64,000 bases of DNA from an endosymbiont of Escarpia spicata. Its GTDB lineage: Bacteria; Pseudomonadota; Gammaproteobacteria; Chromatiales; Chromatiaceae. The notes below the pieces were generated by a model. It was not told the origin of the DNA, made no database searches, and worked only from the letters and a program-made list of their open reading frames with translations. Every line of letters begins with the position of its first letter. Position 1 is the stretch's first letter. The DNA lies in the NCBI GenBank assembly GCA_003349915.1, contig QFXE01000021.1:310001-374000 (forward strand), written 5' to 3'. Shown here piece by piece: positions 44,198 to 61,025 of the stretch. Made by a program: the position numbers and the translations under genes.

Positions 44198-45801
44198 CAG
44201 AGAACATTGTTCAGGTCGGTTCACAGCATGTCGCCGACGTCCAGGATATCAATAAAAACCTGGTGGAGAAGACCCTGCGCATGCGCTGTCTCGCCTATCT
44301 CTCTCAGGTCAAATCCCAGCTGCTGATTGAGACCATCCATGACATGAATAACAGCCGCCAGGAGCTGGCTGATCTGTCAATCGACCTGGCGGAACGCACC
44401 AATAAGGCGGAGAAGCAGAGACAGATCATCGAACGGGAGATGCTAAAGCTGGGGGAGCGGAACAAGGCACTCGAAGTCGACCGAGATCTGCTCGAATTGA
44501 AGGTCGAGGAACGCACCGAGGCGTTTGAAAAACTGGCCCACTACGACTCACTGACCAACCTGCCCAACCGTTTTCTCTTCAATGACCGATTGAACCATGC
44601 CCTGGCCCGCGCTGACAGGGAAAGCAGTAAAGTCGGCCTGCTGCTCATCGATCTGGATCGTTTCAAGAACATCAACGACACCGCAGGCCACCCGGTTGGA
44701 GACGAACTGCTCAGGCAGGTCGGACAACGTATCCTGCTAAGCCTGCGTACTGAGGATACTCTGGCCCGGCTGGGAGGTGATGAATTTGTCGTCATCCTGG
44801 AGAGCATCGAACATGATGAATTGACCGCTCATGTTGCACATAAGATCCAGCAGAATCTTCTACCGCCTTTTGAGCTGACACAGGACAGCATCTATCTGAC
44901 CGCCAGCATCGGCATCAGCCTCTACCCTGGGGATGCCGACGACCCTGTCACCCTGCTGAAAAATGCCGACACCGCCATGTACCGGGCTAAGGCGGAGGGT
45001 AAAAACACATTCCATTTTTACACCAGGGAGCTGACTGCTTCGGCCAACTCACGTTTCTCATTGGAAAACCAACTGCGCCTGGCCCTGGAACGCGATGAGT
45101 TTGAACTTTTCTATCAACCCCAGTTTGACCTGAACAGCGGCCGGATATCAGGGGCGGAGGCGCTGATTCGCTGGAATCATTCTGAGCGCGGCCTGGTCTC
45201 TCCGGCCGATTTCATCTGGCTGGCCGAAGAGACCGGATTGATCATCCCCATCGGCACGTGGGTCATAAAGTCGGCCTGCCGCCAGGCCAAAAAATGGTTC
45301 GGTGAAGGGCGCTTGAAAGGTCGCATTTCGGTCAATCTATCCGCACTTCAGATCATGCAGGAGGAGACCTATTCGGTGGTCAGACAGGCACTGGAGGAGA
45401 GCGGACTTTCTCCCGATCGGTTGGAACTTGAGATCACGGAAAGTGCCCTGATCGGCCAGCACGAGAAGGTCAGCCTGGTCGCCGATGCCTTCAAATCATT
45501 GGGCATCTCCCTGGCTATCGATGACTTTGGTACCGGTTATTCATCCCTGGCCTACCTGAAACGCTTCCACATCGACCGCCTCAAGATCGACCGCTCCTTC
45601 GTTCGCGATATCCCTGGAGACCCCAACGACATGGCCATCATCCGCGCCATCATTGCGATGGGTCACACACTGGGACTCTCAATCGTTGCCGAAGGAGTGG
45701 AGACGGAGGCCCAAGCCAACTTTCTCACCGGCGTCGGTTGTAATGACGTTCAGGGATATTTTTACGGCAAGCCCGTCCCCTGTGACCAGTTCCAGATTTA
45801 A
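44194..45801 (+). CDS. GGDEF-EAL cyclic di-GMP turnover protein
   Basis: 535 residues. The first about 125 residues form a coiled-coil-rich region (ELADLSIDLAERTNKAEKQ, LLELKVEERTEAFE) that probably docks on the ODP protein. The GGDEF domain has an intact LGGDEF near residue 195 and LTNLPNR at its start, and the EAL domain has EALIRW near residue 321, ISVNLSALQI, LELEITES, DDFGTGYSS near residue 444, LKIDRSFV, AEGVET and GYFYGKP. Both active sites appear conserved, so it could be bifunctional. The gene ends in the first copy of a direct repeat that flanks the giant-protein operon. Confidence 0.93.
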   Translation: MTENIVQVGSQHVADVQDINKNLVEKTLRMRCLAYLSQVKSQLLIETIHDMNNSRQELADLSIDLAERTNKAEKQRQIIEREMLKLGERNKALEVDRDLLELKVEERTEAFEKLAHYDSLTNLPNRFLFNDRLNHALARADRESSKVGLLLIDLDRFKNINDTAGHPVGDELLRQVGQRILLSLRTEDTLARLGGDEFVVILESIEHDELTAHVAHKIQQNLLPPFELTQDSIYLTASIGISLYPGDADDPVTLLKNADTAMYRAKAEGKNTFHFYTRELTASANSRFSLENQLRLALERDEFELFYQPQFDLNSGRISGAEALIRWNHSERGLVSPADFIWLAEETGLIIPIGTWVIKSACRQAKKWFGEGRLKGRISVNLSALQIMQEETYSVVRQALEESGLSPDRLELEITESALIGQHEKVSLVADAFKSLGISLAIDDFGTGYSSLAYLKRFHIDRLKIDRSFVRDIPGDPNDMAIIRAIIAMGHTLGLSIVAEGVETEAQANFLTGVGCNDVQGYFYGKPVPCDQFQI

Positions 45802-45847
45802 GCAGTCTGCGCTTTAGGTCACTACACGGATTCAGAGTAAAATAAGC
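45781..45847. repeat. Direct repeat, copy 1 (overlaps end of GGDEF-EAL gene)
   Basis: The 67-base segment from the last seven codons of the GGDEF-EAL gene to just after it matches 60923-60989 without gaps; the central 23 bases (45813-45835, containing AGGTCACTACACGGATTCAG) are identical, and flanking bases match at roughly 70 to 75 percent. The two copies bracket the 15-kb giant-protein operon. Confidence 0.85.
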
Positions 45848-45921
45848 AAACCCCGCCGTGCTGGCGGCATAATTTCCGCTATTCGCACCGATTAGCCCAA
45901 CTCGTTCTGGAACCACCTAGC

Positions 45922-47643
45922 CTACTCGTCGATTACCTCCGGCCGAGTCTCGACGGCGATATCGAAGTGCAAACCACTGAGGCCCTCACCACCCCCAGCA
46001 CTCTTACGGCGTGCAACCCAGAGATGGGTGGAGCCGTCAATCCAGCGGCTGCGCCGGATCAGACGGGAGATCCGGGTGCCGGCCCGGCTCACCTCTTCCT
46101 CGCGCACCTGGTATAGATTGAGGTCAGGCAGTCCCGTCGGTCGGAGAATACGCCCACAGGGGCGAATAAGCTCATACTCCTTCTCATCCAGCCCCTCGCC
46201 GTAGCGCATCATGGCGGCCCTCTCCAGGGCCACTTCGTTGTGCATCTCATCTGTCCGCACCGGCAGGAAGGGGATCCAGTGCTCGGGTACGCTGTTCTGG
46301 AGTCGGTACGCCAAGGGAGCATCGGAGTGGGGCAGAGCCTCCCGGATGGCCTTGGTGAGTGAACGTTCGTGCCCGGCCCAGGGCATACCAATGCCGTTCT
46401 CCAGCGTATGCTCGATAGCCCAGACCATGTTCGCCATCTCGTCGCGCATGAACCGCACCTCCTCAAGCACCTGGCCATCCTGGGTGGCGTTAACCGAACT
46501 GGGAGACAGAATGAAAAAATCCGCCACCCGATTATTCACGCCCTGCAGCGTGGTAGAGAACATGGTCCAGCTCTCAGTGGCTTCCCCTTCCTCTGCATGC
46601 TGTCCGCAGCGCTCGCGGTCGGCGCGTTCGATCAGGGTGTTACCGCCGAAGACATCATGCACCAGCAGTGTGTCAATGGCACACAAACTGCCCACCGGCT
46701 GGGTAAAGGGCACCATGAACCAGTCATTGCTCTGAATCAGCATGAAATCCGAGACTGCCATTTTGGCCAACTCGCGTGGGTCGTTGTCAATTTTAGAGAT
46801 GTTCATTCTGCCGTTCTCAAACTGCCACCAGCGTGCATTGGGCATACCGGTGAAGCGCACATGGACAGGCAGCAGACTCCTGCGGAATGGCTCCGGCTCT
46901 TCTGGATCGCCCGGTAAGTATCCGGGCTGCTGGTCGAAGGCGTACCAATCGAACTGGCCGTTGCATCCCGGGTGGGCTGTTAACCGCGCCCGAGTCCCGT
47001 GGGGAGTGGTCGCGGCAACCTCTACGCCATACTCCAGGCGCTCGGGTCTCCAAGCCGGTGCATCACTGGTCGAGAACGCTTCGCCATACACTGACCTGAC
47101 CCAGTCACGGAATTTCTCCAACAGCTGAATTTCCGGCTTGGTCTCTGTCGGCGGCTTTTTGTCCCGGTAAAGCGCGATCCCGTTGATGGCCCGGCCGGCG
47201 CACACCCGCAGAAAACGCACCGCCTCGAAATCTACCTCCTGCGGTGTCAGCTCTTCGTCTGCGGTCAAGGGGTAGTGCCTGCGGTAGCGTACGATCTCCC
47301 TCTCCAGTTGCGCTTCGGTGAGCATCGCCTCGAATCGTTGCCCCAGTTCCACCGCAGTAGCGAGGTCAGGCGTGCAGGGTTCGGACTCAACCAGTGCCTC
47401 CAGCGGCGCCTGGTTGGCAAAGGGTTTGGGTGTAGCGCCGGACGGGTTCCAACTGTCGATAGTGGAAAAAAGACCAGCAATCTGGACCCAGGCGGGGGAT
47501 GCCGCATCCTCACCCTGGAACTCCCCGACCTGCCATTGCCGGGTCAGGAACCACAGGGGATCATGAACCCGTGCCTCCAGCGAGCGCGTTGTGTCCGCGC
47601 TACGAGGGCGCGGTTCGAGCCGGTTCCACCAAGTACGTGCCAT
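45922..47643 (-). CDS. Giant-protein operon gene 5: conserved hypothetical, 573 residues
   Basis: The protein begins MARTWWNRLEPRPRS and soon has DPLWFLTRQWQVGEFQGEDA (residues about 28-47), a combination I recall only in uncharacterised large hypothetical proteins. The rest holds aromatic and acidic motifs (GRAINGIALYRDKKP, FTGMPNARWWQFENG, DNDPRELAKMAVSDFMLIQSNDWFMVPF) and no signal peptide, membrane helix or catalytic signature that I can identify. ATG at 47643 has GGGGGAG about six bases upstream, whereas the GTG at 47649 overlaps the preceding stop. Last gene of the operon, translationally coupled to gene 4. Function unknown. Confidence 0.8.
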   Translation of the reverse strand: MARTWWNRLEPRPRSADTTRSLEARVHDPLWFLTRQWQVGEFQGEDAASPAWVQIAGLFSTIDSWNPSGATPKPFANQAPLEALVESEPCTPDLATAVELGQRFEAMLTEAQLEREIVRYRRHYPLTADEELTPQEVDFEAVRFLRVCAGRAINGIALYRDKKPPTETKPEIQLLEKFRDWVRSVYGEAFSTSDAPAWRPERLEYGVEVAATTPHGTRARLTAHPGCNGQFDWYAFDQQPGYLPGDPEEPEPFRRSLLPVHVRFTGMPNARWWQFENGRMNISKIDNDPRELAKMAVSDFMLIQSNDWFMVPFTQPVGSLCAIDTLLVHDVFGGNTLIERADRERCGQHAEEGEATESWTMFSTTLQGVNNRVADFFILSPSSVNATQDGQVLEEVRFMRDEMANMVWAIEHTLENGIGMPWAGHERSLTKAIREALPHSDAPLAYRLQNSVPEHWIPFLPVRTDEMHNEVALERAAMMRYGEGLDEKEYELIRPCGRILRPTGLPDLNLYQVREEEVSRAGTRISRLIRRSRWIDGSTHLWVARRKSAGGGEGLSGLHFDIAVETRPEVIDE

Positions 47644-47645
47644 GG

Positions 47646-50600
47646 TCACTCCCCCTCTGCAGCGGTTGAATCGTCGTTTTCGAGGCAGCCCTCGAAGGTG
47701 GGGGAAATCTGGTCTCCCTCAGCATTCTCGGCGATACAGATCATGGGCAGGAAGGGAATGGGCAGATCGAACAGGGCATTTCCGCTGTACAGATCGTGTT
47801 GGGTGGTGTCATCCTCAATCCCCGAGGTGTAATACTCCCCGTCGCTGCCGCGAACACGGGCCAGATCGAAGGTCTGTTCCAGGATCTCCAACAGTGCCCC
47901 GCCGTCCCAAGACTCCGATCCATCAGGGGGAACCGCGATCAGGACGGCATGGGGCGCCTCTGTGCCGGGGCTGTCGTAGTGAAACACGAGGCCGGCGTCC
48001 TCCTCGGCATTGGGAATCAACTCCACCCATTCGTCCACAAGCAGACCCGCCCAAGGCTCCTTCGCTATTGGAAGTTCCGGGCTGTGCAGCACCAGCGACA
48101 ACTGTCCCGCGGGTGGTCGCTTTTTCGGTGAATCAAACTCCAGTGCCACCCAGGGGTTGTTGTGCCGAAAGGGCAGCTGCAGGACACGGGGGGTGCTGGG
48201 CGGCGAACCCAGGGTGCCGGCGTAGAGCATCAGCTTGCGCCACTCTCCCAGAGGCTTGCGCACCCGCGCGGCCTGAGCCATCCAGGCGCTCACCGCCGCT
48301 TCTGGATCGTCCCCCAATATTGGCCCCTCTTCCAGGGCCTTCCCCAACTCCGGTAGGACTGCGGGCACAAAACGCGGCACGGCTGTGAAGTCACGGCCCA
48401 GCACGGCTTGGAACAGTTTAACCGGATCACTCTTCTCTGCGTATGCCGCCGCCTGCCGCCGCCGCAGTTCCTCGAGGACGCTGTCCGTGATCCGAAACAA
48501 CGCTTCCTTCTCCTCGCCTACACCAGGAGAGGGAAAGGCAGAGACAAGACCGAACAGCGATGCCTTGCGCAACCTCTCAGGCAGTTTGCCGATGAGGCCT
48601 GACAGGCGTATGGCCGCAAGATCCTCAATCAACGTTTTCAGTTCTTTGAGGAGCATGCCTCCTCTTTCTTTCAGATCCGCCGTAGCTGCCCCCTCCACTT
48701 GTTGGACACTGGCAGAGGTGGCCCGCTCGGATGGCTCCAGATCCGCTGGCCATAACGGCCGGGCAGTGGCCAGAACCCGGTTGAGCGTCCGGGCAATCTC
48801 CAGGATCTCTGCAAAGCTGCGCTCCGTGGTCAGCAGGTTTGGTAGATGGTATTCAATCCGTGTTATGGCGGGTGGGCTCGTTTGGTTCCAGCCCCCCTGG
48901 ACAGTGAGCGCGGCAGTGAAGACACGCCGGTCCAGCTCAGAGTCCAGGGAATCGTTCTCCACCGCTCGCGCCAGGGCGAGAAGGTCCAGCGGGTCCAAAC
49001 CCAGATGGTCCAGCGTTATGATCCGGGGTTTCTCATCGGCCAGATGGACCCGGCATTTTACCTGCTTCGGATCCCCCAGGATGCTGCCCGCCCAAGCGTT
49101 GAGATAGGGCTCCGCGCGCCCACGCGGGTTGCGGGGCTTGCTGCCCCAAACACCCATTGCGGTTGGTTCACCCAGGACCAGGCCGACCCGGTGGACCAGG
49201 CTGGTCCCTCCCAAGGGCACGCTGGCAATCTCCGGCTCGGGTGGACGCGCCCCTTTGGCGATGGCATCCAGGGTAGCCCCGGCACCGCCGACGCCCCCCT
49301 TGATCCACTGGTAGACCGACTCCGCCGTGAGCAGGTCGGCGACGGCGTCCATGGCCTCGTCCAGCAACTGGACTTGTGCCGTAACCTCCGGGGACCGGTA
49401 CATATGCCGCGGCTCATCCTCACGCCATTTGGTCAGCAGCGCATATCCATCCACCACGTTGCGTGCCGCCACCTGCTCGGCCCGCTCTTTGCTGCTGGTC
49501 ATCTTGTTGGCGACCAGGGGAAAGTCGTTACGGATGTCGTCGATGTGACTGTCCAGCCCTGCGTCGTGCAGTCCCCGCTCGAACAGATAGCCCAGTACCG
49601 CCCCCAAGGGTTGTCCCTCACGCACCGCACCCAGCAGCCACAGAGCGGTGCGAACCCGGGCCGAGGAGAGGTCGATCTCATAGGGCTTCTGCTCCGCCTC
49701 GCCCTTGCGTGTCATATAGGCGTTGCGCAGCACCGCCGCCGCGCTGCCGTGGGCCGGTGAAGGGGCGTAGATGTAGCCGCTGCTGTAGGTGAGGGCGCTT
49801 ACCCCTTCCATACCCTCTACCGGTGTACGCTCTTCATGGCGGATCGGTTTGAGGTTCTCTACCCAGCCGTAGGCGGCGATATGGCAGTTTCTCTCATCGA
49901 ACTGAAATTCAGTTTTCGAATCATGCTGGAGGTTTGTACGCATCCGATCCAGGCGCTTGGAGGCCAGAGCGGTGATCCAGGCATCGATGCGGTAGGAGCA
50001 GACCCCCAGGGTCTCCCCCAAAAGGCGCTCCAGCTCTGCGGTAGGAAGCGATTCCAGCGCCAGCAACGCCTCGCTGTGCTCTTGCAGAGCCTCCAGCGCC
50101 TCTTGATCCCCGGAGCTCTCTTCATAGGCAGAGGCCGTGAGCAGGGTCGCCTGACGCAGCAGCAGGTATAGCAGGGTCTTGGGGTAGTCGTCCGTGCTGG
50201 GCAGGCCCGCAGATTGGCCGTCATTGATCAGTGCCTGGGTATACACCTGCAACGCATGGATGCAGTTATCGTCCCCCAGGCCCTCCGTCTCGGACAGAAC
50301 CTCATCCTCCTCCACCTCGGGCGGCGGATTCACCACCATGCCGCAGCTGAACCGATAGGCGTCGCCGAAATAGCTCAGTATCGGCCCCCCCCAATCTCTC
50401 AGAAGGGCCATCGCCATAGCTTCTTGGGAGCCAGGTGCAGACCGAGCCCCCTGGGGCACCCCTCCACCGCCTTGCAGCGTCTCAAGGGCACTGACAACAT
50501 CCTCCGGCATGCGGAAGAAATCTGTGATCGGTATCCCGCCAGAACCTCCTCCAGGAATATGGGGCTCCCCCCGCGGATCACCATTCAAATCAACCAGTCT

Positions 50601-52178
50601 GCCCAAGTCATCTCCAGGTAGATAACTGCCGATGGCTCCTCCCATATAGCCGATGTTCGGTGGAATGCCTGCAGTATTCACATTACCGACAACCTGCTGC
50701 AACGCATCTATGAGGTCCCTGCCGAACATCGGGCGGATGTACAGCTCCCGCGGGGACGCATCCATGCTCAAGGCGCTGTACAGATCCACATCCGGATCAC
50801 CCCGGCGCCCGATGCTCGGCACGTCACACAACCGCAGCAGATGGTTCTTCAGTGCCGCCAGTCGGGGTAACAGCGTCCACTCCACCAGGCTGTCAGGCTC
50901 CTCCAACTCCGGCAGTAGCTCCTCAACTTGCGCCAGAATCGCACTTATCTCTTCATCCTCTTGCGGCAACCGAGCGACCGGTAACACCCCATAAGGCACA
51001 TCACCGATACGAAAGGCAGGCAGAGGCCCCCGTCCCCGCACATGATTGACGAACAGTTCACGCGTGGCCTCGACCGTCAGCGGATCAAAATCGTAGAGGG
51101 TCTCCTCACGATCGTCGAATTCCGCCGACATCATGGTTTCCATCGTGTATCCGACGGTCGCCGGCCACAGGGCAGTGGCCATGGCCCCGGCGCTTTTCTG
51201 CTCGCTGCCCCCCGCCCCGGCGATGTGGCGCAGGGTTTCTGCGGAAAGCCCCAGCGCCCTCGCAAAGTGGGCGCCGTCGCAGTCGCTGTCCGTACCGTCC
51301 CACTGCGGGCTAAGTTCCACGGCACGGCTCTCCTCGCCGTGGGGGTCCGCTGGCGGGTAGCCCGACCGGGTATGGCTGGTATTGTTGGTGGGGGTGCCCT
51401 GGGAGACCAAGGAGCAGCCACGGGTATAGTGATGGCCCTCGAACAGGTCATCCAGCGCCTGCCCGGATTGTTGAATGGACAGCGAGTCACTTTTTACCCC
51501 TGTCACGATCACCCGGGAGAAGCCGGATGCGAAGTCCTCCTCCATCAGCTCGATGCACACCGCCATGCCGACTTCCAGAGCGCGGTCGAAGTCGAAGGTC
51601 CATCTGATCGCTTCGTCCACCTCGAGCCCGTCTGACAACTTCACCTTATTTCCGCCGGCACCAAGGCCGAGTGCCAGGCTCAGATCTCCCTGGGTCGGCC
51701 TGCTGAGTTCATGGTAGACCTGCTCGCGTGGGTGGCTGCAGGTGGCCTGCACCAGCCATTTGTCCGGCAGCAGTTGCGCGCGTGGCGCCGGTCGTGACTT
51801 GGGATCGCGCATTCCGAGTCTGTCAAGTGCGGAATCCGGCTTGGTCTGGCTGACGATCCATGCCGCCCGCGGCGCACCGACCTCCGCAATCAAGGCGGTC
51901 CAGGCGTCTCTTTGATCTTCTTCGGTGGCGTTCAGGCAAGCCTTCCAGTAGTCCGTGCCGGCCTCAATTTCTGCTTTAGTGAGTAGCTGATCATGGGTCT
52001 CGCACAGGATGCCGTCAGGGTAGATGCGCACCCTCAGTTCGCCGACAGGCTCAGACCCGGATTCGGGCGGGGGATCGTAGCGCACGAAACGGGTTTCCAG
52101 GCGTACCGGGAAGAGGGTGATCGGGTACTTGCAGTCCAGTCCCCCAAACGGGTCTTTGACTTGTGTGATCGCGGTCAT
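47646..52178 (-). CDS. Giant-protein operon gene 4: conserved hypothetical, 1510 residues
   Basis: The N-terminal part (ITLFPVRLETRFVR near residue 20-35, then LRVRIYPDGILCETHDQ) looks like a conserved capping module. A middle motif reads FVNHVRGRGPLPAFRIGDVPYGVLPVARLPQ (about residues 395-425), and later YSSGYIYAPSPAHGSAAAVLRNAYM and SSARVRTALWLLGAVREGQPLGAVLGYLFERGLHDAGL (about residues 800-900). No signal peptide, transmembrane helix, Walker motif or peptidase motif is evident. The ATG at 52178 is preceded by GGAG in the sequence GGAGTGACCATG, whose TGA is the stop of gene 3, so translation is coupled. I recognise the style from unannotated proteins of several phyla but not a function. Confidence 0.8.
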   Translation of the reverse strand: MTAITQVKDPFGGLDCKYPITLFPVRLETRFVRYDPPPESGSEPVGELRVRIYPDGILCETHDQLLTKAEIEAGTDYWKACLNATEEDQRDAWTALIAEVGAPRAAWIVSQTKPDSALDRLGMRDPKSRPAPRAQLLPDKWLVQATCSHPREQVYHELSRPTQGDLSLALGLGAGGNKVKLSDGLEVDEAIRWTFDFDRALEVGMAVCIELMEEDFASGFSRVIVTGVKSDSLSIQQSGQALDDLFEGHHYTRGCSLVSQGTPTNNTSHTRSGYPPADPHGEESRAVELSPQWDGTDSDCDGAHFARALGLSAETLRHIAGAGGSEQKSAGAMATALWPATVGYTMETMMSAEFDDREETLYDFDPLTVEATRELFVNHVRGRGPLPAFRIGDVPYGVLPVARLPQEDEEISAILAQVEELLPELEEPDSLVEWTLLPRLAALKNHLLRLCDVPSIGRRGDPDVDLYSALSMDASPRELYIRPMFGRDLIDALQQVVGNVNTAGIPPNIGYMGGAIGSYLPGDDLGRLVDLNGDPRGEPHIPGGGSGGIPITDFFRMPEDVVSALETLQGGGGVPQGARSAPGSQEAMAMALLRDWGGPILSYFGDAYRFSCGMVVNPPPEVEEDEVLSETEGLGDDNCIHALQVYTQALINDGQSAGLPSTDDYPKTLLYLLLRQATLLTASAYEESSGDQEALEALQEHSEALLALESLPTAELERLLGETLGVCSYRIDAWITALASKRLDRMRTNLQHDSKTEFQFDERNCHIAAYGWVENLKPIRHEERTPVEGMEGVSALTYSSGYIYAPSPAHGSAAAVLRNAYMTRKGEAEQKPYEIDLSSARVRTALWLLGAVREGQPLGAVLGYLFERGLHDAGLDSHIDDIRNDFPLVANKMTSSKERAEQVAARNVVDGYALLTKWREDEPRHMYRSPEVTAQVQLLDEAMDAVADLLTAESVYQWIKGGVGGAGATLDAIAKGARPPEPEIASVPLGGTSLVHRVGLVLGEPTAMGVWGSKPRNPRGRAEPYLNAWAGSILGDPKQVKCRVHLADEKPRIITLDHLGLDPLDLLALARAVENDSLDSELDRRVFTAALTVQGGWNQTSPPAITRIEYHLPNLLTTERSFAEILEIARTLNRVLATARPLWPADLEPSERATSASVQQVEGAATADLKERGGMLLKELKTLIEDLAAIRLSGLIGKLPERLRKASLFGLVSAFPSPGVGEEKEALFRITDSVLEELRRRQAAAYAEKSDPVKLFQAVLGRDFTAVPRFVPAVLPELGKALEEGPILGDDPEAAVSAWMAQAARVRKPLGEWRKLMLYAGTLGSPPSTPRVLQLPFRHNNPWVALEFDSPKKRPPAGQLSLVLHSPELPIAKEPWAGLLVDEWVELIPNAEEDAGLVFHYDSPGTEAPHAVLIAVPPDGSESWDGGALLEILEQTFDLARVRGSDGEYYTSGIEDDTTQHDLYSGNALFDLPIPFLPMICIAENAEGDQISPTFEGCLENDDSTAAEGE

Positions 52179-52180
52179 GG

Positions 52181-55171
52181 TCACTCCTTCTCGGGCGGCA
52201 GCATGTCAGAGCCGTGGATCAGAGCCCGGAACGGGGCCTGCAGGGTGATGAAGGCAAGGTCTGAACCGAGCGAACCGTTGTGTGCATGCCATTCAGCTCC
52301 TTGCCCCTCCTTCGGGAGCAGACTCGAGTCCAATTGGTCCAGGTCGATGTTGCTCATCTCCTGCAGTGCCTCTGCATTGTCCACCAGGTGTCCCCAACTG
52401 AGATCGCGCCAGTTACCGGGCGGCTCCAGCTCGGTACCGAAGTGCTCTCCCGCTGCATCGAGACCGAAACGGGGTTCGCTGGGCTGCTCCTGCAGCACGA
52501 AATACCAGCCTTGCTGCGCCTGATCCGTGCTCTCATCATCGCCTCTCGCCTCCTGCTGCGAGAGTGCAAAACCGGCAAAAAAGATATCGGGTGCCAGGCG
52601 GCCGAAGAACAGTGGGCTTTTCTTATTCTCCTCGCCCGGGTTCTCATCGCGGATTCCCCCTTCGGCTACGGATTGTCCATTCTCATCCTTCAGCATCGCC
52701 TTTTGCACATAGATGATCGTGTTGGGATAGTGCCGCAGCAGCTCTCCGCGGATCAGCAGCACTATCTGTTCTCCGTCAGTGGTCTGTTGGCAGGCATTCC
52801 CGCCCAGTTCCGATTTACCCCACATGTGGATAGGCCGGATATCCTTGAGACCGCCCGCGGGTTGTGGACCCATATAACCGCTCACGTCCCAGAATTGACG
52901 AAAACAGGTGCCCCGCTGGTCGGTGGGGTACTCGTGCCACAGCAGCTCGCGTGCCATTTCGTGATTGAGGCCCGCCATGTAGGATTCGATGAACTTCTGG
53001 TTGGTCTTCAAGAGAGAGACTGTGTTGGGGGGAATCTGTGAGACACCTGGCAGCAGCCACTCCTGCGACAACTCCTGCAGTGGCTCGTACATGGGCCGGT
53101 CGATCTCTGGAGCCACCATCACCTGTTCACCTGGGTGTTCCGCAGGATCCCACTCCACCCATTCGGCGGTTGTCAGACGCTCGGTCAGCGGCAGCAGAAT
53201 CGTCTGCGCAGGATCTGTCGCGGCCAGGATAGTGTCGCGCAGTAAATGGATTTCCAGGGGCTCCTGGGATGGCGGTTCAGGTGGGATAGGCCCCTCTCCA
53301 CTACTCGGGGTGGAGGGGCTCTGCGCATCGATGCTGCCGAAGATATGCGCGATTTCCTGGCGCTTTCGAGTCGCCAGCTCCTGAGTCCACTCACTCTCTG
53401 TGCCTGCCCACTCCTTGGGTACCGGCGTTTCTTCCGCTGGCTGGAAGTCAGGATTGGCAGGGGCCTGCATGATGATTTCTTCGCTCAGTTTGCCCTCGCG
53501 CAGCCCCTGGAGCAGGATGAGGGTGTCTGCATCGCTCGTATCCGGTTTTTGCAGGTGGTCGGCAACGGAAGCCAAGGTCGCTGATCCGCGCATCTTGCCA
53601 CCCCCGAGGGGAAACGTACGCTCACCCTCTATCAACCCTATCAGCAAGCCACTCTCTCCGCTGGCCGTAGAACCCTCGCTTTGTGTCGAACTCGTGGTCT
53701 CCTCCGGCTCCGGCAGCCGTCGCTGGCGTGTCCGGATCGGACCCAGGGGTCGACTGATGCGGCGGAACTGTCCTTCCAACAGCCCCCGTGCCGGTAGTTT
53801 TTGGCGCAGGGTTTGCCGAACGGTCTGCTGGTCCGCCTGAACCTGTCCATGCAGCGGTTCGGTGATGAACAGCAAGCTAAGCTCGTCCTGGGTCTCGAAA
53901 TGCCGTTCACGCAGGCGCTGGGTTACTGCGGCAGCGAGCTGGGTCTCGCGTAGCTGCTCGTTGATCTCAAGCACTCCCTCCACTTGGTCCCAAGCCTCAG
54001 CCATGAGTTCCTGCTGCAGCTTTTGCACCACGCGGGTACCGAGTCCGGCCATGGTGCGATGCCGCAGGTCGCTGTTGAGGGTATCGAACCAGGGATGATC
54101 GACGCTTGGAATCCTGTCCCGGGCGGCGTGCCAGCGCCCATACAGGGGCGGCGCCACCACCCGGGTCTCACCGCTGTCCAGCATGGCAGTCGGCACGTTG
54201 AGCCGCTCATGCAGCGATTTGGTAAATACCTTGTCCTGGGTCTCCGTGCTGTCCGGTTCGGCCGGGGAGACCAGCGCGCCCTCCAGGGCCATTGGCGCCT
54301 TGGCGGCTGGTGGGAGTTCAGGGCCTGGTGCGGATACGTCCATCTGCCGCCGGCCGACACCAGCCGACAGCTGTTTCGGTGGTAGCAGTTGCCGTGTCAG
54401 GGACTCGAAGTCGCCGGCCGCTCCGGTCTGAAAACGCCACTGGTAGTAGACGGGGAGTTTGACACTCGTAACCCCCTGCCACCAGGAAGGCTGCGCCGAA
54501 TGGTAGCGGACATCGTCGACACCGATCGCCTCGCCCAGTCCGGCAAGCCGGCCACGATTGAAGGCGGGCACCAGACAGACAGTGTAGGCGGTGTGCGGCT
54601 GCAGGCGACGTGGACAGAGGAGCCTGGATAGAGCCCGGTCGGGCTGTTGGTCGACGATATCAGCCACCTCCTCGTCCCCGTTCGCCTCCAGGCCGGTGAT
54701 CTGCACATGAGCCCAGGCCCAGGATTGGGTGAGGTGCGGCAGGCTGCTGGCATTCGCAACCTGAATCCAGGGCAGACGGCCGTCGGCGCCAGCGGCTTCG
54801 GTCCCAACTATCTCATTGTCGGTCAGGGCGATCAGCACCAGCCAGGGATGCAGGCGGTTATTGACAGGCGCCGCCGGCGTGTAGCGCCAGGGGAAGTCTA
54901 GCTGGTCAAACTCAATCAGGGGAAAGTAATTGCACTCGGCATCATGGACCTCCGGCTGCGGATAGGTGCGGATGATGGAGCGCGGATTGATGCCGGCCAC
55001 CTCACCGGGGCCATAGAGGGCGATCGGCGCGCTCACCTCTCGACCACCATTGAAAGCGAGAGTGACATCGAACGCCGCCCGTCCAGGGTCCGGGCTGCCG
55101 GCTGTGATCCCAGTGGAGATGCCCCGGCGCAGCCAGGGCAGGAAGGCGAGGGTTGCGGGATCTTGACTCAT
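52181..55171 (-). CDS. Giant-protein operon gene 3: conserved hypothetical, 996 residues
   Basis: Starts MSQDPATLAFLPWLRRGIS; the ATG at 55171 overlaps the stop of gene 2 (ATGA). The visible landmarks are WLVLIALTDNEI, VCLVPAFNRGRLAGLG, a stretch of disordered Ser/Gly/Thr/Glu residues in the middle, and a C-terminal GLNHEMARELLWHEYPTDQRG and CFRQFWDVSGY. No signal peptide or membrane segment. The middle includes a low-complexity stretch (TSSTQSEGSTASGESG) that may be a hinge between two folded parts. Domain recognition fails, so the role can only come from the partners. Confidence 0.8.
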   Translation of the reverse strand: MSQDPATLAFLPWLRRGISTGITAGSPDPGRAAFDVTLAFNGGREVSAPIALYGPGEVAGINPRSIIRTYPQPEVHDAECNYFPLIEFDQLDFPWRYTPAAPVNNRLHPWLVLIALTDNEIVGTEAAGADGRLPWIQVANASSLPHLTQSWAWAHVQITGLEANGDEEVADIVDQQPDRALSRLLCPRRLQPHTAYTVCLVPAFNRGRLAGLGEAIGVDDVRYHSAQPSWWQGVTSVKLPVYYQWRFQTGAAGDFESLTRQLLPPKQLSAGVGRRQMDVSAPGPELPPAAKAPMALEGALVSPAEPDSTETQDKVFTKSLHERLNVPTAMLDSGETRVVAPPLYGRWHAARDRIPSVDHPWFDTLNSDLRHRTMAGLGTRVVQKLQQELMAEAWDQVEGVLEINEQLRETQLAAAVTQRLRERHFETQDELSLLFITEPLHGQVQADQQTVRQTLRQKLPARGLLEGQFRRISRPLGPIRTRQRRLPEPEETTSSTQSEGSTASGESGLLIGLIEGERTFPLGGGKMRGSATLASVADHLQKPDTSDADTLILLQGLREGKLSEEIIMQAPANPDFQPAEETPVPKEWAGTESEWTQELATRKRQEIAHIFGSIDAQSPSTPSSGEGPIPPEPPSQEPLEIHLLRDTILAATDPAQTILLPLTERLTTAEWVEWDPAEHPGEQVMVAPEIDRPMYEPLQELSQEWLLPGVSQIPPNTVSLLKTNQKFIESYMAGLNHEMARELLWHEYPTDQRGTCFRQFWDVSGYMGPQPAGGLKDIRPIHMWGKSELGGNACQQTTDGEQIVLLIRGELLRHYPNTIIYVQKAMLKDENGQSVAEGGIRDENPGEENKKSPLFFGRLAPDIFFAGFALSQQEARGDDESTDQAQQGWYFVLQEQPSEPRFGLDAAGEHFGTELEPPGNWRDLSWGHLVDNAEALQEMSNIDLDQLDSSLLPKEGQGAEWHAHNGSLGSDLAFITLQAPFRALIHGSDMLPPEKE

Positions 55172-58100
55172 GACGCTTTCATCCATTCGTATTTGGAAAC
55201 GACCTGCCAACGCCCAGCCTGTTCCGGGTGCTCGATAAGGAGGGCAGCGAGGGCGTTGCGGGCAGCGGCCTTGCTCAAAGGGGTGGTTTTGGCGTTCAAG
55301 GGAGCCATATCTTTGGTATTGACGATTTGATAGCTCTCTTCTTTCAGGGTGAAGGCCTTGTGCTTGTTGGCACGAACTGCGTGTTTTCCAGATCCTGCAC
55401 GGCGCTTCAAAGATTGTGCCTTGGCCCCCCGCCGGCACATCGCCAGCAGCTCATCGCGCCCCAGGGGAGTTGTTACCACCGGCCGGCTGGTCTTGAGTCT
55501 TGTCGCACGTGCGCTTTCAAGGAGAACAGGGGCCACAGTTATTCCCCCGGCAGGGGCGTCGATGGTTTCAGTTTCGTACTCGATCGGGGCATAGTGGATC
55601 ACATTGCTGCCGCCCCACACCATCTGCCGGCTGCCCACGGTGACACCGGCCACCATGGGTTCGAAAGAGTCCCGACTGAGCTTCTCGTCATCCGACAACT
55701 GCTCGAACTGCCCCGGCGCAAACCAGTCCGCCACCGTCTCCCAATCACACTCATCTCCATCGATGGACTGAGGGGGAAGGTTCCCTACCCTGATCGATCT
55801 GATCTCAAAGTAATCATCACCAATGATTGCCAGCTCGCCGAACTTCTCCAGCCGCTGACTCAGGGGCACCACTTTCTGTCGCATGGTCACCCGGCCCATG
55901 GGGTGGACCATGAGCGGGATATCCTCGCCCTCAGGCGCCTTGAGGCTGACCCCTGCATACACGCCATCAGGCAGCGTGGCACTCCAGTTGCGGGGATCCC
56001 GGATAGCTGCATCCAGGGGCTCCCAGACATCCTTGGGGGCGAGTGTGATCGAGCTGCGCTCGCCGACGGTCACGTCGACGGCGATACAGATATCCGCAAA
56101 CAGGATCGAGACGCAGGCACGACCCCGAATGCGGTAGGGGGCCGGTCCCGAAAGGGTGGCAATGATAGCGACCCCCGCCAGTGTCTCGCCGAAAAGACGA
56201 AATGAGATGATCTGCTCGAAGTCGGCCCGAAAATAGAAAGGGTCGAGAATGAGTAAGGCATGGAAGCTCAGATACCCTTCCAGACTTGCTGGTCCAGCGG
56301 CGGCGTACAGCTCGGCCCTGGCCCCAAACTGAATGGTATTGGAGGTGATGGCCATATAGCCCTGCAGGGTAATACGCGGATTGTCCTCATTGCCCAGGGA
56401 GACGGTAATCGGCTTTAGGGTGGGAAAGTTTGGCGGGCTCCTAAAGTGCGGGTTGAAGCCACCGATCGCGAGGGCAAAATTTGGCTTCCCGCCCCAGGAC
56501 AGACGCAGAGCCATGTCGCCATAGATGGGGAAACCGTTGATCTGGGAATCCCGTAGCGAGGCATCGACGGCCAGCCTCTCGTTGGCAAAATCAAGGATAC
56601 CCAACACATCCACATGCAGAGAGACGATGGGGTTATTCTCGTCCGGCAAGGCTGCGCTGATCTGACCCAGGAGCACCAGCAGTATCGGATCGGGAACCTC
56701 GAGGAAAATACCGAGTTCGGCATCGATCAGTCGCGGTGTACCCCAGCTCAAGCGGGCCATGGGCCCAAACACGTAACGGCCAGGCTGAACCGGGAAGAAG
56801 TTGCGCACGTCGCTGATGATCTGCGGCATGTTGCGTTGTGGATCCTCGGGAAACAGGATGGGATCGGTGGAGCCGTTACGGATGCCGTTTTGCAGGGCCT
56901 CCAGGGCCATGCTGCGGTGGATACCGATCAGCCCCCCGGCCCCGGTCAGGGCAAAAACGAAGCTGAGCTGGATGGGTGGAAACTCGCCGCTGATGATGAC
57001 CAGAAAGGAGAATCCCGGCGATGGCAGAGGGCCACCGTCGCTACGGCGAGTGTCTAACAACCCGATGGCGGTCAGGGAGATCTCGAAGATATCGAGTGCC
57101 AGCACCCCGGCATAGCGCCCGTTTTCCGGGTCGAAAACCAGGGTTCCACCACCGCTGACCAGACCGCCGTCGAGCGAGATACCCATGCCTTCCGGCGGCT
57201 TGAGGCCGATATCGAGCGATACGGGGCCAAAATTGCCGTTGCCATTCGCAGGAAACGAGATGCGGGTCTCGAGTCCGATGCGCTCCACAACGGCGTTGAA
57301 GGGGCCCAGGTTGAGGCTGGCGGAGGCGTCGGCGCCGATCAGCAGCCCCCCGCCCTCCTCTACGCCGATACCAAGGCCGATGCGCCGGATGTCCACCACT
57401 CCGCCCAGGGAGAGGTGGAGCGGCAGGGCGATGTCCAGGGTGGCGCTGCCATCAAATGCCAGCCCCTCGGTCGACGACCAGCCGATAGTAATGTCGAAGT
57501 CGACCGCCAAGCCCTCTTCCGGCAGCACACTCGACAGAAAACCGTAGCGCTCCGGGACATCGATCTGCAGGCGGGCACCACGGATCGGCAGACGTAGCGC
57601 GAATTCAGCCTCACCATCCGCATCCAGTTCAAAGTCGACCAACAGACCAAGGGTGCCGATCCACAGAGCCACGCCTTCCGGGTCGCCGAGGAGGAGGCGT
57701 CTCTCTCCGTCGGGCTCGCTGCGGGTGATGGCCAGTTGGGCTCCGAAGCTTGGTAGCATTTGGTCCTCTTCCAACAACGAGGCAACCTGCACACCGGAGG
57801 GGCGCAGAACCACTGCATAGCGTGACGGGGCATCGGCCGAGATCTGGATCGATAGTGTCCATTGATCGCCCAGATCGACCACTTCAGAGGCACCGCCAAC
57901 CCCGAACGGCACAAAAGCAAACCCTGGCAAAGGGTCCTGTTCGTTCCCAGGCAGGGGTAAAACCGCCAGACCGGCCTGGCCGCCGATCTGCCCACCATCC
58001 GTCGCCGCCCGCTCTATGTTGGCCAGCGGGATGTGCAACTGGGCATCTGGGTTGTCCCGCTCGGGATCCGTGCCCAGGATCTGCGCATCAGATGGGGTGG

Positions 58101-58761
58101 GGTAGGTGAAGAAGACCGGGATGCCGATGCCAAGTAACAGCCGCTCCAGGGCGAAGAGGAGTTCGTACTGTTTGAGACTGGCATCATCCCATAGGAAGGT
58201 ATCCCGCATGATGCTGCCAGGATCGCCGAGCCAGCGACCGAGCTTCCCAAAGTCCACCTGCGGCAATAATGGCTGACCCTCTTGCGGGGCTTCGGCCAGT
58301 CCTAACGCCAGCTCAAGGGGGGTGGGCGGCAAGATGATGACGCCGGTCAGCTCCAGAATGCCAAGCAGCCCTGGCTGGTGATTGCGCAGGTAGTGGGTCA
58401 GCAGATAGTTCAGCAACAGCCATCCCAACCCTGGCCCGCCGTTGTACCCCGGCAGGCCGTCTAGTCCGCGGACGGCTTCCAGCAGTCTACCCAGGGCATC
58501 AATGAACGCGGGAAGCTGAGTCGGAGAGGGGGGCTGTCCGGTCGCCAGGAGGTCACTCAGGGGGGTGCAGGCACCGTCGATTACTGCGACAATCTCAATT
58601 AATTGATCATCGTCCACCTCGATGTCGTCCGGGTCAAGCCCAGCATCGGCAACGAGCCTCAGCAGGCCTGCCGGCTGCTCCTCCTGCGCAGCAACCGCCA
58701 GCGGCTCGAACATCCACGCTACCCCCGTCAGCAGTGCCTGTGTCGTGCTTTGGCTCGGCAT
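55168..58761 (-). CDS. Giant-protein operon gene 2: DUF6603-like beta-rich protein, 1197 residues
   Basis: From the ATG at 58761, with GGAGGAG seven bases upstream. Residues from about 260 to 960 are dominated by alternating hydrophobic strands with glycines (LAFDGSATLDIALPLHLSLGG, GGLLIGADASASLNLGP, ERLAVDASLRDSQINGFPIYGDMALRLSWGG, ITLQGYMAITSNTIQFGARAELYAA), a pattern I associate with the DUF6603 family. The region DPFYFRADFEQIISFRLFGETLAGVA is close to that family's consensus. The last 170 residues are basic and less structured (GAKAQSLKRRAGSGKHAVRANKHK). It may form a long amphipathic beta groove or solenoid for binding lipids or polymers, but this is inference. Confidence 0.7.
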   Translation of the reverse strand: MPSQSTTQALLTGVAWMFEPLAVAAQEEQPAGLLRLVADAGLDPDDIEVDDDQLIEIVAVIDGACTPLSDLLATGQPPSPTQLPAFIDALGRLLEAVRGLDGLPGYNGGPGLGWLLLNYLLTHYLRNHQPGLLGILELTGVIILPPTPLELALGLAEAPQEGQPLLPQVDFGKLGRWLGDPGSIMRDTFLWDDASLKQYELLFALERLLLGIGIPVFFTYPTPSDAQILGTDPERDNPDAQLHIPLANIERAATDGGQIGGQAGLAVLPLPGNEQDPLPGFAFVPFGVGGASEVVDLGDQWTLSIQISADAPSRYAVVLRPSGVQVASLLEEDQMLPSFGAQLAITRSEPDGERRLLLGDPEGVALWIGTLGLLVDFELDADGEAEFALRLPIRGARLQIDVPERYGFLSSVLPEEGLAVDFDITIGWSSTEGLAFDGSATLDIALPLHLSLGGVVDIRRIGLGIGVEEGGGLLIGADASASLNLGPFNAVVERIGLETRISFPANGNGNFGPVSLDIGLKPPEGMGISLDGGLVSGGGTLVFDPENGRYAGVLALDIFEISLTAIGLLDTRRSDGGPLPSPGFSFLVIISGEFPPIQLSFVFALTGAGGLIGIHRSMALEALQNGIRNGSTDPILFPEDPQRNMPQIISDVRNFFPVQPGRYVFGPMARLSWGTPRLIDAELGIFLEVPDPILLVLLGQISAALPDENNPIVSLHVDVLGILDFANERLAVDASLRDSQINGFPIYGDMALRLSWGGKPNFALAIGGFNPHFRSPPNFPTLKPITVSLGNEDNPRITLQGYMAITSNTIQFGARAELYAAAGPASLEGYLSFHALLILDPFYFRADFEQIISFRLFGETLAGVAIIATLSGPAPYRIRGRACVSILFADICIAVDVTVGERSSITLAPKDVWEPLDAAIRDPRNWSATLPDGVYAGVSLKAPEGEDIPLMVHPMGRVTMRQKVVPLSQRLEKFGELAIIGDDYFEIRSIRVGNLPPQSIDGDECDWETVADWFAPGQFEQLSDDEKLSRDSFEPMVAGVTVGSRQMVWGGSNVIHYAPIEYETETIDAPAGGITVAPVLLESARATRLKTSRPVVTTPLGRDELLAMCRRGAKAQSLKRRAGSGKHAVRANKHKAFTLKEESYQIVNTKDMAPLNAKTTPLSKAAARNALAALLIEHPEQAGRWQVVSKYEWMKAS

Positions 58762-58765
58762 CGAT

Positions 58766-60718
58766 CTACTCCTCCGGTGTTGAATTGAATTCGATGATCG
58801 TTCGGAAGAGATAGGGTAGCCGGTTGGTAATCTCCGTCGCCCTCCTCCGCGCATCCTCTACCTTCATGTCGGAGGGGAAGCTGGACCTGATCATGCCGTA
58901 AGGAAGAATATCGATCTCGTACAAGGTGCCTTTCGGGTTGAAACTGGTGGTATCTTCGTCTCCACGTAACCTGAAGCTGGAGAATATGTGCTCCCACTGC
59001 AACAGGAAGTCCGGATTATCAACTGGGGTTCCATGGGGCTGTTTGCTCATGTTCTCGGTGGCGAGCGGCATGTGATAGACGGGCAGGAATTCGTAGTAAT
59101 CACCCGCATCGTGCTGCCTGAGCCTGATCCGCTTGACCACAATCTCCGCTTCGAATGGAATTTTGGGGCCATCTGATTTCGGCTCTATCCTTAATTTGCT
59201 CTCCACTGTTCCAAGTTTCGTCAACCGCGCCAAGAAAGGATTGTTCTTGTAATAGATCCGCGAGACCTGTCCGGGAATGTCCGGGAGTTCGTACCTCACC
59301 GGCGGATTCCCATCGGTGAGGTAGGCACGTTTGAAGCCGAAAAAATCTTGTTGGGGATCCAGGCCAGGAGTAACGTCGGCCCATTGGTTGCCGAAATAAC
59401 AGTGCCGGGCCCAAAGGAGCTGCTCCGTCGGCCGGAAATACTCGACCAGAACGCAGCCGATGAAGGTCAGCGCAAATCCCAGGGCCACCGCTATCGGAAG
59501 GATGATCGGAATCGCGGTGCCGGCGGTAACGGAACCGATCAACGCGATATTTGCAATCGTCATGATAGCGATGCCGGTGGACCCCATGCCGTAACCTGCG
59601 GCGGGGATATAGTACCCGTCCTGCAAGGCGTTTATGGCATCGATAAACCGCATTGCGGAGTCCCAAAAGGCAAATACGGAGCTGTATAAGGTGAAGCGGG
59701 TGGCCGCAATTTTCCAATTCTGTTTCTTGACCACCAGCGCAAACAGCTGGGCGACACTGTTCATCACCCCGGCGGTATCGGTGGCCATATCCCCAAGATT
59801 CATGGCACTGGGGTATTGTTTGTACTCCAGGTAGGTGTAATAGAGCTTCAGAGATTCGAGGACCAGCATGAAACTCGCAACGCTGCTTTGTCCTGCCTGG
59901 GAGAATAGACCCCGTTTGAACTTGTAGTCGGTCTGTACCTTTTCCACAATGGCCCGGCCTTTCTGGACGTCAATGTCCATTTGGGCGAACGCGTCTACGG
60001 TGTTGGGCAGACACAAATCGATGAAGTCCTCCAAGTATTGGTGGAACGTCTCCATCGGGATCTTCGGGGCCTCTGCCCCCTGGTTCTGGGCCTCTGCGTC
60101 ACCGAGCTGATCGAGCATTGCCGGCAGAAGGCCGAAGTAAACGTTTGACAGCAACTCCGCGGCACGCATTGCCGTATGCTGTGCGTCCGAGCACTGCTGC
60201 TGCTCCGAATCCTCCTTCAGAAATGAGATGTCGAAATCCCCTTGCGTAGAGTTGATAAATCGCTGGGGATGGAGCAGCGGCAGGTTAGTGTCTGTCGGGG
60301 CAACAGCGACGCACTTCCTTAGGTAAACCTGACCCGGTTCGCTGGCGGCCAGGGCGGTGATGAACTGATGTGCCTGTTCCAACTGCTTTTCGATGGGGTA
60401 GTCGCGGAATTCATTGATGAATTCCTGTTTGTCGAGCTCTTTCACAAGTGCGGTGACGGCCTTTCCAACCTTCTTATCGATCCTATCGCGCGCCGCTTTC
60501 ATCACTCCCTTAAACGTTTGGTACCGACTGTTTGCCCATTCATCCTCCTGCATCCCCTGGGCTTCCAGTATCTGGAGGGTCTCATAGAGCAGGAACTTGT
60601 CTGCGTTGCCGGGATTGAGGCTTCTTCCCAGCCACTGCGGCCACTGCTTCAGTGTTTCGTTATATGCATTAAGGGCGGTGAGGGCCGCAGAAAAGGAACT
60701 TTTACGTGGAGGAAGCAT
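58766..60718 (-). CDS. Giant-protein operon gene 1: hydrophobic, pore-former-like protein, 650 residues
   Basis: From the ATG at 60718 after a GGAGAGGGG sequence. The first about 350 residues are helical and charged (NETLKQWPQWLGRSLN, AARDRIDKKVGKAVTALVKELDKQEFINEF). Residues about 370-425 form a glycine- and isoleucine-rich hydrophobic block (MGSTGIAIMTIANIALIGS, GTAIPIILPIAVALGFALTF), long enough for two membrane passages, followed by EQLLWARHCYFGNQW. This arrangement reminds me of the C-terminal region of VasX/BTH_I2691-type T6SS pore-forming effectors (hydrophobic hairpin, then a W/C-containing segment), but sequence proof is missing. The C-terminal part is predicted beta-rich. First gene of the operon. 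Confidence 0.65.
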   Translation of the reverse strand: MLPPRKSSFSAALTALNAYNETLKQWPQWLGRSLNPGNADKFLLYETLQILEAQGMQEDEWANSRYQTFKGVMKAARDRIDKKVGKAVTALVKELDKQEFINEFRDYPIEKQLEQAHQFITALAASEPGQVYLRKCVAVAPTDTNLPLLHPQRFINSTQGDFDISFLKEDSEQQQCSDAQHTAMRAAELLSNVYFGLLPAMLDQLGDAEAQNQGAEAPKIPMETFHQYLEDFIDLCLPNTVDAFAQMDIDVQKGRAIVEKVQTDYKFKRGLFSQAGQSSVASFMLVLESLKLYYTYLEYKQYPSAMNLGDMATDTAGVMNSVAQLFALVVKKQNWKIAATRFTLYSSVFAFWDSAMRFIDAINALQDGYYIPAAGYGMGSTGIAIMTIANIALIGSVTAGTAIPIILPIAVALGFALTFIGCVLVEYFRPTEQLLWARHCYFGNQWADVTPGLDPQQDFFGFKRAYLTDGNPPVRYELPDIPGQVSRIYYKNNPFLARLTKLGTVESKLRIEPKSDGPKIPFEAEIVVKRIRLRQHDAGDYYEFLPVYHMPLATENMSKQPHGTPVDNPDFLLQWEHIFSSFRLRGDEDTTSFNPKGTLYEIDILPYGMIRSSFPSDMKVEDARRRATEITNRLPYLFRTIIEFNSTPEE

Positions 60719-60823
60719 GACATCACCCCTCTCCTGGGATGGGACAGAATATGAGCAGCGCCAGGATTGCATTTTTACCCTGGTACCGCAGACACCAGCC
60801 TGGATTTAAAATCCTTGCCCTTA

Positions 60824-60852
60824 AATATAGTATGGATATTATTTGTCTACAA
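60824..60852 (-). promoter_or_regulatory. Predicted promoter of the giant-protein operon
   Basis: Read on the minus strand, TTGTAG (+ strand 60847-60852) is followed after 17 bases by TATATT (+ strand 60824-60829). The region is AT-rich compared with its surroundings. Transcription would start about 100 bases before the ATG of gene 1 at 60718. Confidence 0.5.
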
Positions 60853-60922
60853 GCACCACTTAGTCAGCAAATTAATCCTATATGGATAATGCAGCCGAAG
60901 ACCGGTTCTGATTCTCCACGTT

Positions 60923-60989
60923 TATGATCAGTTGCAGATTTGAACGGTGGCGCTTTTAGGTCACTACACGGATTCAGGTTAAAGTAGGC
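60923..60989. repeat. Direct repeat, copy 2 (upstream of M48 peptidase gene)
   Basis: Second copy of the 67-base repeat starting at 45781, same orientation; 60955-60977 is identical to the first copy. Its left part resembles the last codons of the GGDEF-EAL gene but is not in a gene here. It lies about 40 bases before the M48 start codon. The two copies delimit an island of 15.1 kb. Confidence 0.85.
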
Positions 60990-61025
60990 CATTCTGTATT
61001 CAGAGCCATCCAGGTAGTCAACAGC

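Follow-up and report, generated by a model that had tools for sequence, protein, structure and literature searches.

The g1–g5 operon

The window analysed here is the whole 64,000-nucleotide stretch (positions 310,001 to 374,000) of contig QFXE01000021.1 from an endosymbiont of Escarpia spicata, and it carries an operon of five genes, which we call g1 to g5. Genes g2–g5 form a conserved four-gene unit, hereafter the chassis, whereas g1 lies outside the conserved unit and fills a slot next to g2 whose content varies; together we call them the cassette. The five minus-strand open reading frames (ORFs) occupy positions 45922-60718 with a 4-bp gap between g1 and g2 and 4-bp overlaps at g2/g3, g3/g4, and g4/g5 (Table 1), in agreement with the original prediction, made from the sequence alone, of five consecutive minus-strand genes with almost no spacer. 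The motifs quoted in that prediction are present in the translations, and its protein lengths stand for g1, g2, and g3 (650, 1197, and 996 residues); those for g4 and g5 (1510 and 573) hold from second starts and are otherwise 1512 and 575. In five congeners (G001-G005), blastn matches to window positions 45801-45847 and 60925-60994 are only 59-80 bp apart, so that all 15 kb of the operon were either acquired in the window genome or lost from the congeners as a single unit. This clean absence, together with 135 relatives of g5 confirmed by tblastn, indicates that these are real genes and not chance ORFs.

Table 1. Coordinates of the operon and of the surrounding block (window positions)
Feature	Position	Strand	Length	Description
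g1	58766..60718	-	650 residues	slot gene, exchangeable effector position
g2	55168..58761	-	1197 residues	DUF6603 chassis protein
g3	52181..55171	-	996 residues	chassis protein, unnamed family
g4	47646..52184	-	1512 residues, or 1510 from second start	chassis protein, unnamed family
g5	45922..47649	-	575 residues, or 573	chassis protein, unnamed family
Block missing from five congeners	45848..60924			blastn

Only g2 is a full-length member of a known family, Pfam DUF6603 (PF20248; E-value 8.8e-126, 420.8 bits against a gathering score of 27). DUF6603 is a family without a function, and it covers g2 and says nothing on g3–g5 or the slot. The earlier statement that three proteins lack a nameable domain agrees with g3, g4, and g5, which have no Pfam match at E ≤ 1; the rest of that domain picture had to be amended, since g2 belongs to DUF6603 and g1 has a weak NCBIfam match to the BTH_I2691 (VasX) family. 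Consistent with the predicted lack of sheath, tube, and VgrG, no machine family was matched by g1–g5 in Pfam, NCBIfam, or PHROGs, and no PADLOC family was found at E ≤ 0.1. None of the five proteins matched a PHROG at E ≤ 0.05, and an origin from phages is therefore not supported. A simple hydropathy test detected a strongly hydrophobic N-terminus in none of them, as expected from the predicted absence of signal peptides. Profile searches, which had been proposed as a check, connected g2–g5 to no known machine. Using family alignments of g5 (A2, 73 rows), g3 (A4, 57 rows), and g4 (A5, 60 rows), the g3 and g5 profiles found nothing in the PDB at E ≤ 1 and the g4 profile gave no useful match (best E 0.052), while the g2 profile matched mainly helical-bundle and coiled-coil chains, on the g2 N-terminus. 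DUF6603 was not named and the gene set was not described in the literature searched, which excluded preprints and most subscription journals, and the available portions of PMC8213781, PMC7159879, and PMC3482391 contain no such cassette.

A conserved four-gene chassis

A scan of GTDB with g5 yielded the 135 confirmed relatives, and 80 loci were kept, 78 of them assigned to 10 named bacterial phyla and two with no phylum. For 63 loci, 9 kb or more of sequence upstream of g5 was available (L006 was left out by the ORF selection though it carries all four genes); g3 and g4 were each present in 62 of these and all four genes in 51. Eleven loci were short only of a called g2, and in four of these (L018, L029, L051, and L062) a whole-genome search located DUF6603 just past the fetched flank. 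Consistent with this, DUF6603 was present in all 50 cassette genomes searched whole and in none of 14 controls. The median intergenic gaps in the unit are -4, 13.5, and 4 bp. Furthermore, the distances of g3, g4, and g5 correlate with one another (Mantel r 0.92-0.94; 0 of 999 permutations as high; 62 sets, comprising 61 loci and the window), although part of this correlation may come from shared host ancestry. Taking these results together, g2–g5 constitute a well-supported, conserved, and co-diverging unit.

The distribution of the unit is patchy. In the window genome g5 is single-copy, and among 92 genomes around it, g5 was found only there and in G040. Fifteen plasmid records carry g5, five of them haloarchaeal, and among the six that were opened, profiles detected the complete set of g2–g5 in those of Halobellus, Salinigranum, Streptomyces longwoodensis, and Rhizobium lusitanum, although in R. 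lusitanum both g3 and g4 are broken into two ORFs. The haloarchaeal plasmids with all four genes are L136 and L138. The plasmid record of S. anthocyanicus has g5 only.

The original prediction of a new multi-subunit system was thus supported for g2–g5, which recur across many phyla, diverge in step, and gave no match to a known machine in the searches performed, but not as a fixed machine of five parts. The neighborhood comparison that it proposed divides in the same way, because g2–g5 recur as a unit in other phyla and gene 1 varies. A fixed five-protein machine could be ruled out, since phmmer detected no relative of g1 at E ≤ 10 in 40 upstream regions and the slot is variable.

An exchangeable gene next to g2

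We defined the slot gene as a gene of at least 120 residues on the same strand and within 300 bp upstream of g2. Upstream genes were taken for 40 of 56 DUF6603 places, and exclusion of L084, L085, and L088, which have another architecture, left 37 cassettes other than the window. A slot gene was present in 32 of them, the exceptions being L087, L095, L107, L108, and L118. The 32 slot proteins comprise nine trypsin-like proteases, six subtilases, three phospholipase D (PLD) proteins, three PhoD proteins, two M64 peptidases, one VasX-like protein (L123), and eight unassigned proteins; hydrolases therefore account for 23 of the 24 assignable proteins. Eight of these proteins (L092, L093, L094, L096, L101, L102, L112, and L123) were assigned one by one from family tables and the others by blastp kinship, motifs, and tallies. 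The trypsin-like call rests on sub-cut-off Pfam matches in a few of the nine and on invariant His, Asp, and Ser residues in all nine. The catalytic motifs are intact in all 20 trypsin-like, S8, PLD, and M64 members, and the PhoD members have conserved Asp/His-rich motifs, in which the metal ligands were not pinpointed.

We mapped the slot class onto a quick g2 tree with one support value (38 rows, 27 of them labeled, in seven classes, one of which is an unnamed pair). The class changes at least 12 times, against a minimum of 6 and a shuffled mean of 16.5, and none of 200 shuffles was as low, indicating that an effector stays in place for some time but is replaced again and again. On the tree, PLD appears three separate times, as does PhoD. 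In L094, L112, and L117 the gene order is g3-g4-g5-X-g2, and the slot gene X still adjoins g2. It is therefore well supported that unrelated effector-like families replace one another in the position next to g2, and this variation, along with the conservation of g2–g5, gives the cassette the form of exchangeable effectors on a conserved chassis. As a separate observation, G040 has a gene that is PhoD-like by eye and divergent from g2.

All nine trypsin-like and four of the six subtilase slot proteins carry the same domain, about 130 residues long, at the C-terminus. A model of this domain matched at 22 places, spread over 17 of the 51 genomes searched, with first-look candidates partly scored in six of the 51 (G094, G097, G100, G101, G104, and G141), and 21 of the 22 belong to a cassette and lie upstream of g2; the sole place away from a cassette is on contig C12 of G096. 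Twelve of the 22 places had been used to build the model, and nine of the remaining ten lie at a cassette, although one of these nine (G097) is nearly identical to a row of the model. Tandem pairs of the domain occur in five genomes, in two of which one copy is a stand-alone domain of 136-138 residues. These stand-alone copies (L167:1468-1884 and L169:1489-1899), located beside full protease effectors, are perhaps remnants of displaced effectors.

The VasX-type resemblance of g1

Residues 274-462 of g1 match positions 637-836 (of 858) of NF041559 at an E-value of 3.6e-8. The score of 32.4 bits is below the curated cut-off of 150, and g1 is thus not placed by score in this BTH_I2691/VasX family of type VI secretion system (T6SS) effectors. 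In 40 other regions, a phmmer search of the sequence upstream of g2 found no relative of g1, and the best PDB match (SmhB, E 0.15) was not significant. The only other VasX-like slot protein found was that of L123 (Nostoc). In the available part of a study on Tke5, a member of the BTH_I2691 family, membrane segments are predicted within residues 608-813, and the helical region alone kills while the beta-rich C-terminal region is dispensable for toxicity (PMC12909789). The g1 match falls in the C-terminal region that holds these predicted membrane segments, but nothing other than residues 274-462 matches and the MIX-containing N-terminus was not seen. From this alignment, g1 could be a relative of the Tke5-type pore module without a MIX-containing N-terminus. 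The T6SS sheath protein VipB (PF05943) was not matched in the window genome; it occurs in nine of the 51 cassette genomes.

Structure models and site of action

An AlphaFold2 model of g2 (predicted local distance difference test score, pLDDT, 75.8; predicted template modeling score, pTM, 0.45) is helical at the N-terminus and then consists of about 40 strands. The two faces of these strands differ in hydropathy (2.90 vs 1.44 when shuffled, z 7.8, 0 of 1000; 30 strands of at least eight residues), and g2 is accordingly modeled as a giant amphipathic beta-sheet. The best Foldseek matches of the model were ApoB100 (E 7.5e-5) and outer-membrane barrels (PapC and LptD), with query-length TM-scores of 0.11-0.14; on the basis of the model, this likeness reflects a common amphipathic-sheet theme and not homology. 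The model of g5 (pLDDT 80.1, pTM 0.77) had no Foldseek match at E ≤ 0.001 in the PDB and BFVD, and its seven long strands show no such amphipathicity. In a survey of seven chassis proteins picked for unusual length or annotation, we found lamin-tail domains on one g5 (Halobellus), an FG-GAP repeat on one g3 (Streptomyces), and a sub-threshold LamG match on one g5 (L058). Along with the survey of N-termini given below, these domains weakly favor a role outside the cell by a non-Sec route.

The nature of the slot proteins raises the possibility of an abortive-infection-type defence, in which infection would be sensed by the chassis, which would then set free a protease, PLD, or pore-forming effector inside its own cell. 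Peptidases, PLD proteins, and membrane effectors, the kinds found in the slot, are typical of such systems, the PADLOC subtilase model matches the slot protein of L093 (3.8e-30), and the block is patchy and horizontally moved. However, no nucleotide-binding, NTPase, TIR, or effector-associated domain was named in the five window proteins or in the tallies of 34 slot proteins, no recurrent defence neighbors were seen in the clustered flanks, which were annotated in part, and the adhesion-type domains on some chassis proteins argue against an intracellular role. We thus regard intracellular defence as unlikely. The available text on the nucleoside triphosphate (NTP)-dependent conflict systems (PMC7159879) likewise describes trypsin- and subtilisin-type effectors and hosts that are often multicellular, but no NTPase, vWA, MoxR, NucA, or effector-associated domain was matched in the cassette.

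The same adhesion-type domains would fit an extracellular enzyme complex with a degradative or developmental role in nutrition, predation, or matrix remodeling rather than a toxin, as would the predominance of hydrolases among the assigned slot proteins and the mostly environmental hosts of the cassette (judged from record titles). Such a complex seems very improbable to us, because the VasX-like slot proteins of the window and L123 are not digestive and the chassis proteins have no Sec-type signals.

Relation to contractile injection systems

Another explanation is that the chassis serves as an accessory payload or loading module that packages or escorts effectors into or onto the particle of an extracellular contractile injection system (eCIS). 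In L010, L011, L023 (Chitinophaga), and L071 (Flavobacteriaceae), g5 is followed on its own strand by an eCIS-type operon, whose sheath and cap have Pfam support and whose tube, LysM, and spike genes were labeled by eye, but this adjacency is limited to these four loci in two lineages. The sheath family PF17482 was found in 33 of 51 cassette genomes and, among 90 genomes around the window that lack the cassette, in 19 (five being its congeners), and the cap family Pvc16_N in 30 of the 51 and in none of the 14 controls. Nevertheless, 18 of the 51 cassette genomes, several of which are draft metagenome-assembled genomes (MAGs), lack the sheath and 21 lack the cap, and PF17482 also matches phages (3 of 14 controls). 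In a sample of 392 Bacteroidota genomes, 17 had DUF6603 above the cut-off, not all of them shown to be cassettes. The sheath was present in 10 of these 17 and in 79 of the 375 others (p 0.001; 0.003 without the anchor genome), but the cap association was weak (7 of 17 vs 68 of 375, p 0.027; 0.09 without the anchor genome), and these tests ignore phylogeny. Besides its cassette, the window genome has an eCIS-type locus on another contig (C3), whereas all five congeners have the sheath without a cassette and G040 has a cassette without the sheath.

None of g1–g5 matches an eCIS sheath, tube, spike, or cap family, and constant co-occurrence with eCIS was not found. A general eCIS requirement was therefore rejected as proof, the co-occurrence being partial and the adjacency confined to two lineages; the link is real in places, not general, and an accessory role of the chassis to eCIS is in our view improbable. 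The two systems share diverse effectors and a distribution over environmental bacteria and archaea, as far as the available part of PMC8213781 describes the eCIS.

The eCIS-type locus of the window genome (L124:10090-19900 and L125; contig C3 from ~182107) includes a Pvc16_N cap, a sheath, and spike-like and gp25-like genes, and also encodes a 928-residue protein that is DUF4157-like by eye.

A possible effector-carrying complex

The explanation that we prefer, at somewhat less than an even chance, is that the cassette encodes an undescribed, modular effector-carrying protein complex that is self-contained and horizontally transferred. On the same tentative footing, it would represent a class of toxin-delivery particle across two domains of life (bacteria and haloarchaea), consisting of four giant proteins with a membrane-active g2 sheet and an effector slot, and with docking in part via the C-terminal domain. 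A toxin-complex mechanism is the best of several that we infer. The four chassis proteins would assemble into one particle in the cytoplasm, and the slot protein would dock on this particle near g2, possibly via the shared C-terminal domain in the two protease classes. The particle would then act outside the producing cell, with lysis or, where present, a contractile injection system as candidate exit routes, and the amphipathic g2 sheet may contact or cross the membrane of the target, giving the effector access to its substrate. The payload of the window cassette would be a VasX-like protein that depolarises membranes. Of the earlier phrase "assembly or delivery system of unknown type", the multi-subunit part holds for g2–g5, and delivery by the complex is plausible. 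By analogy, the Tc (ABC) toxin complexes also appear to combine giant subunits with an exchangeable toxic part (PMC7861908, available part), but g1–g5 have no match to a TcA, TcB, TcC, or Rhs family in Pfam or NCBIfam at E ≤ 1.

Several observations weigh against such a complex. Extra adhesion-type domains were limited to two clear cases and one sub-threshold case among the seven chosen proteins. A strongly hydrophobic N-terminus was found in none of 246 chassis proteins (60 g3, 69 g4, 77 g5, and 40 g2, three of these g2 being of other architecture) and in three of 34 slot-position proteins; without a secretion signal, the exit route from the producer is left unexplained. In addition, no conserved immunity-like neighbor was present among the clustered flanking genes, the C-terminal domain is absent from the PLD, PhoD, M64, VasX-like, and unassigned slot proteins, the family assignment of g1 from its sequence is weak, and lone g5 genes occur in L019 and L135.

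Three widespread families of giant proteins are nameless and a fourth has only a DUF number. If the explanation is correct, they would form a toxin or delivery complex of a new kind, found in 10 or more bacterial phyla and in haloarchaea, with a docking tag that occurs naturally and cargoes that can be swapped for one another. The cassette is directly testable because it is present in the cultured environmental strains Chitinophaga filiformis DSM 527 (L011) and Nannocystis exedens DSM 71 (L012).

Variant loci and surroundings of the block

L084, L085, and L088 have a second DUF6603 architecture without g4 and g5, in which DUF6603 is followed by a protein of about 750 residues that is homologous among the three; one of these proteins weakly matches the g3 profile (5.2e-6). 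The g2 of an Algoriphagus locus (L095:2548-9165) has 2205 residues, about 1000 of them extra at the N-terminus. In a Rhodanobacteraceae MAG (L064:380-11626), g4 is broken up into several ORFs and g3 is shortened, owing to decay or an assembly error. Record MT835531.1 (L134), labeled "Bacteriophage sp.", contains g2, g4, and g5 fragments, matched no eCIS query, and is probably a mislabeled bacterial contig.

The genes on both flanks of the block in the window are ordinary. One flank has yicC, a gene with the ODP-type metallo-beta-lactamase fold, and a gene identified by eye as GGDEF/EAL, and the other has an M48 peptidase, a guanylate kinase, and a TRAM/radical-SAM gene.

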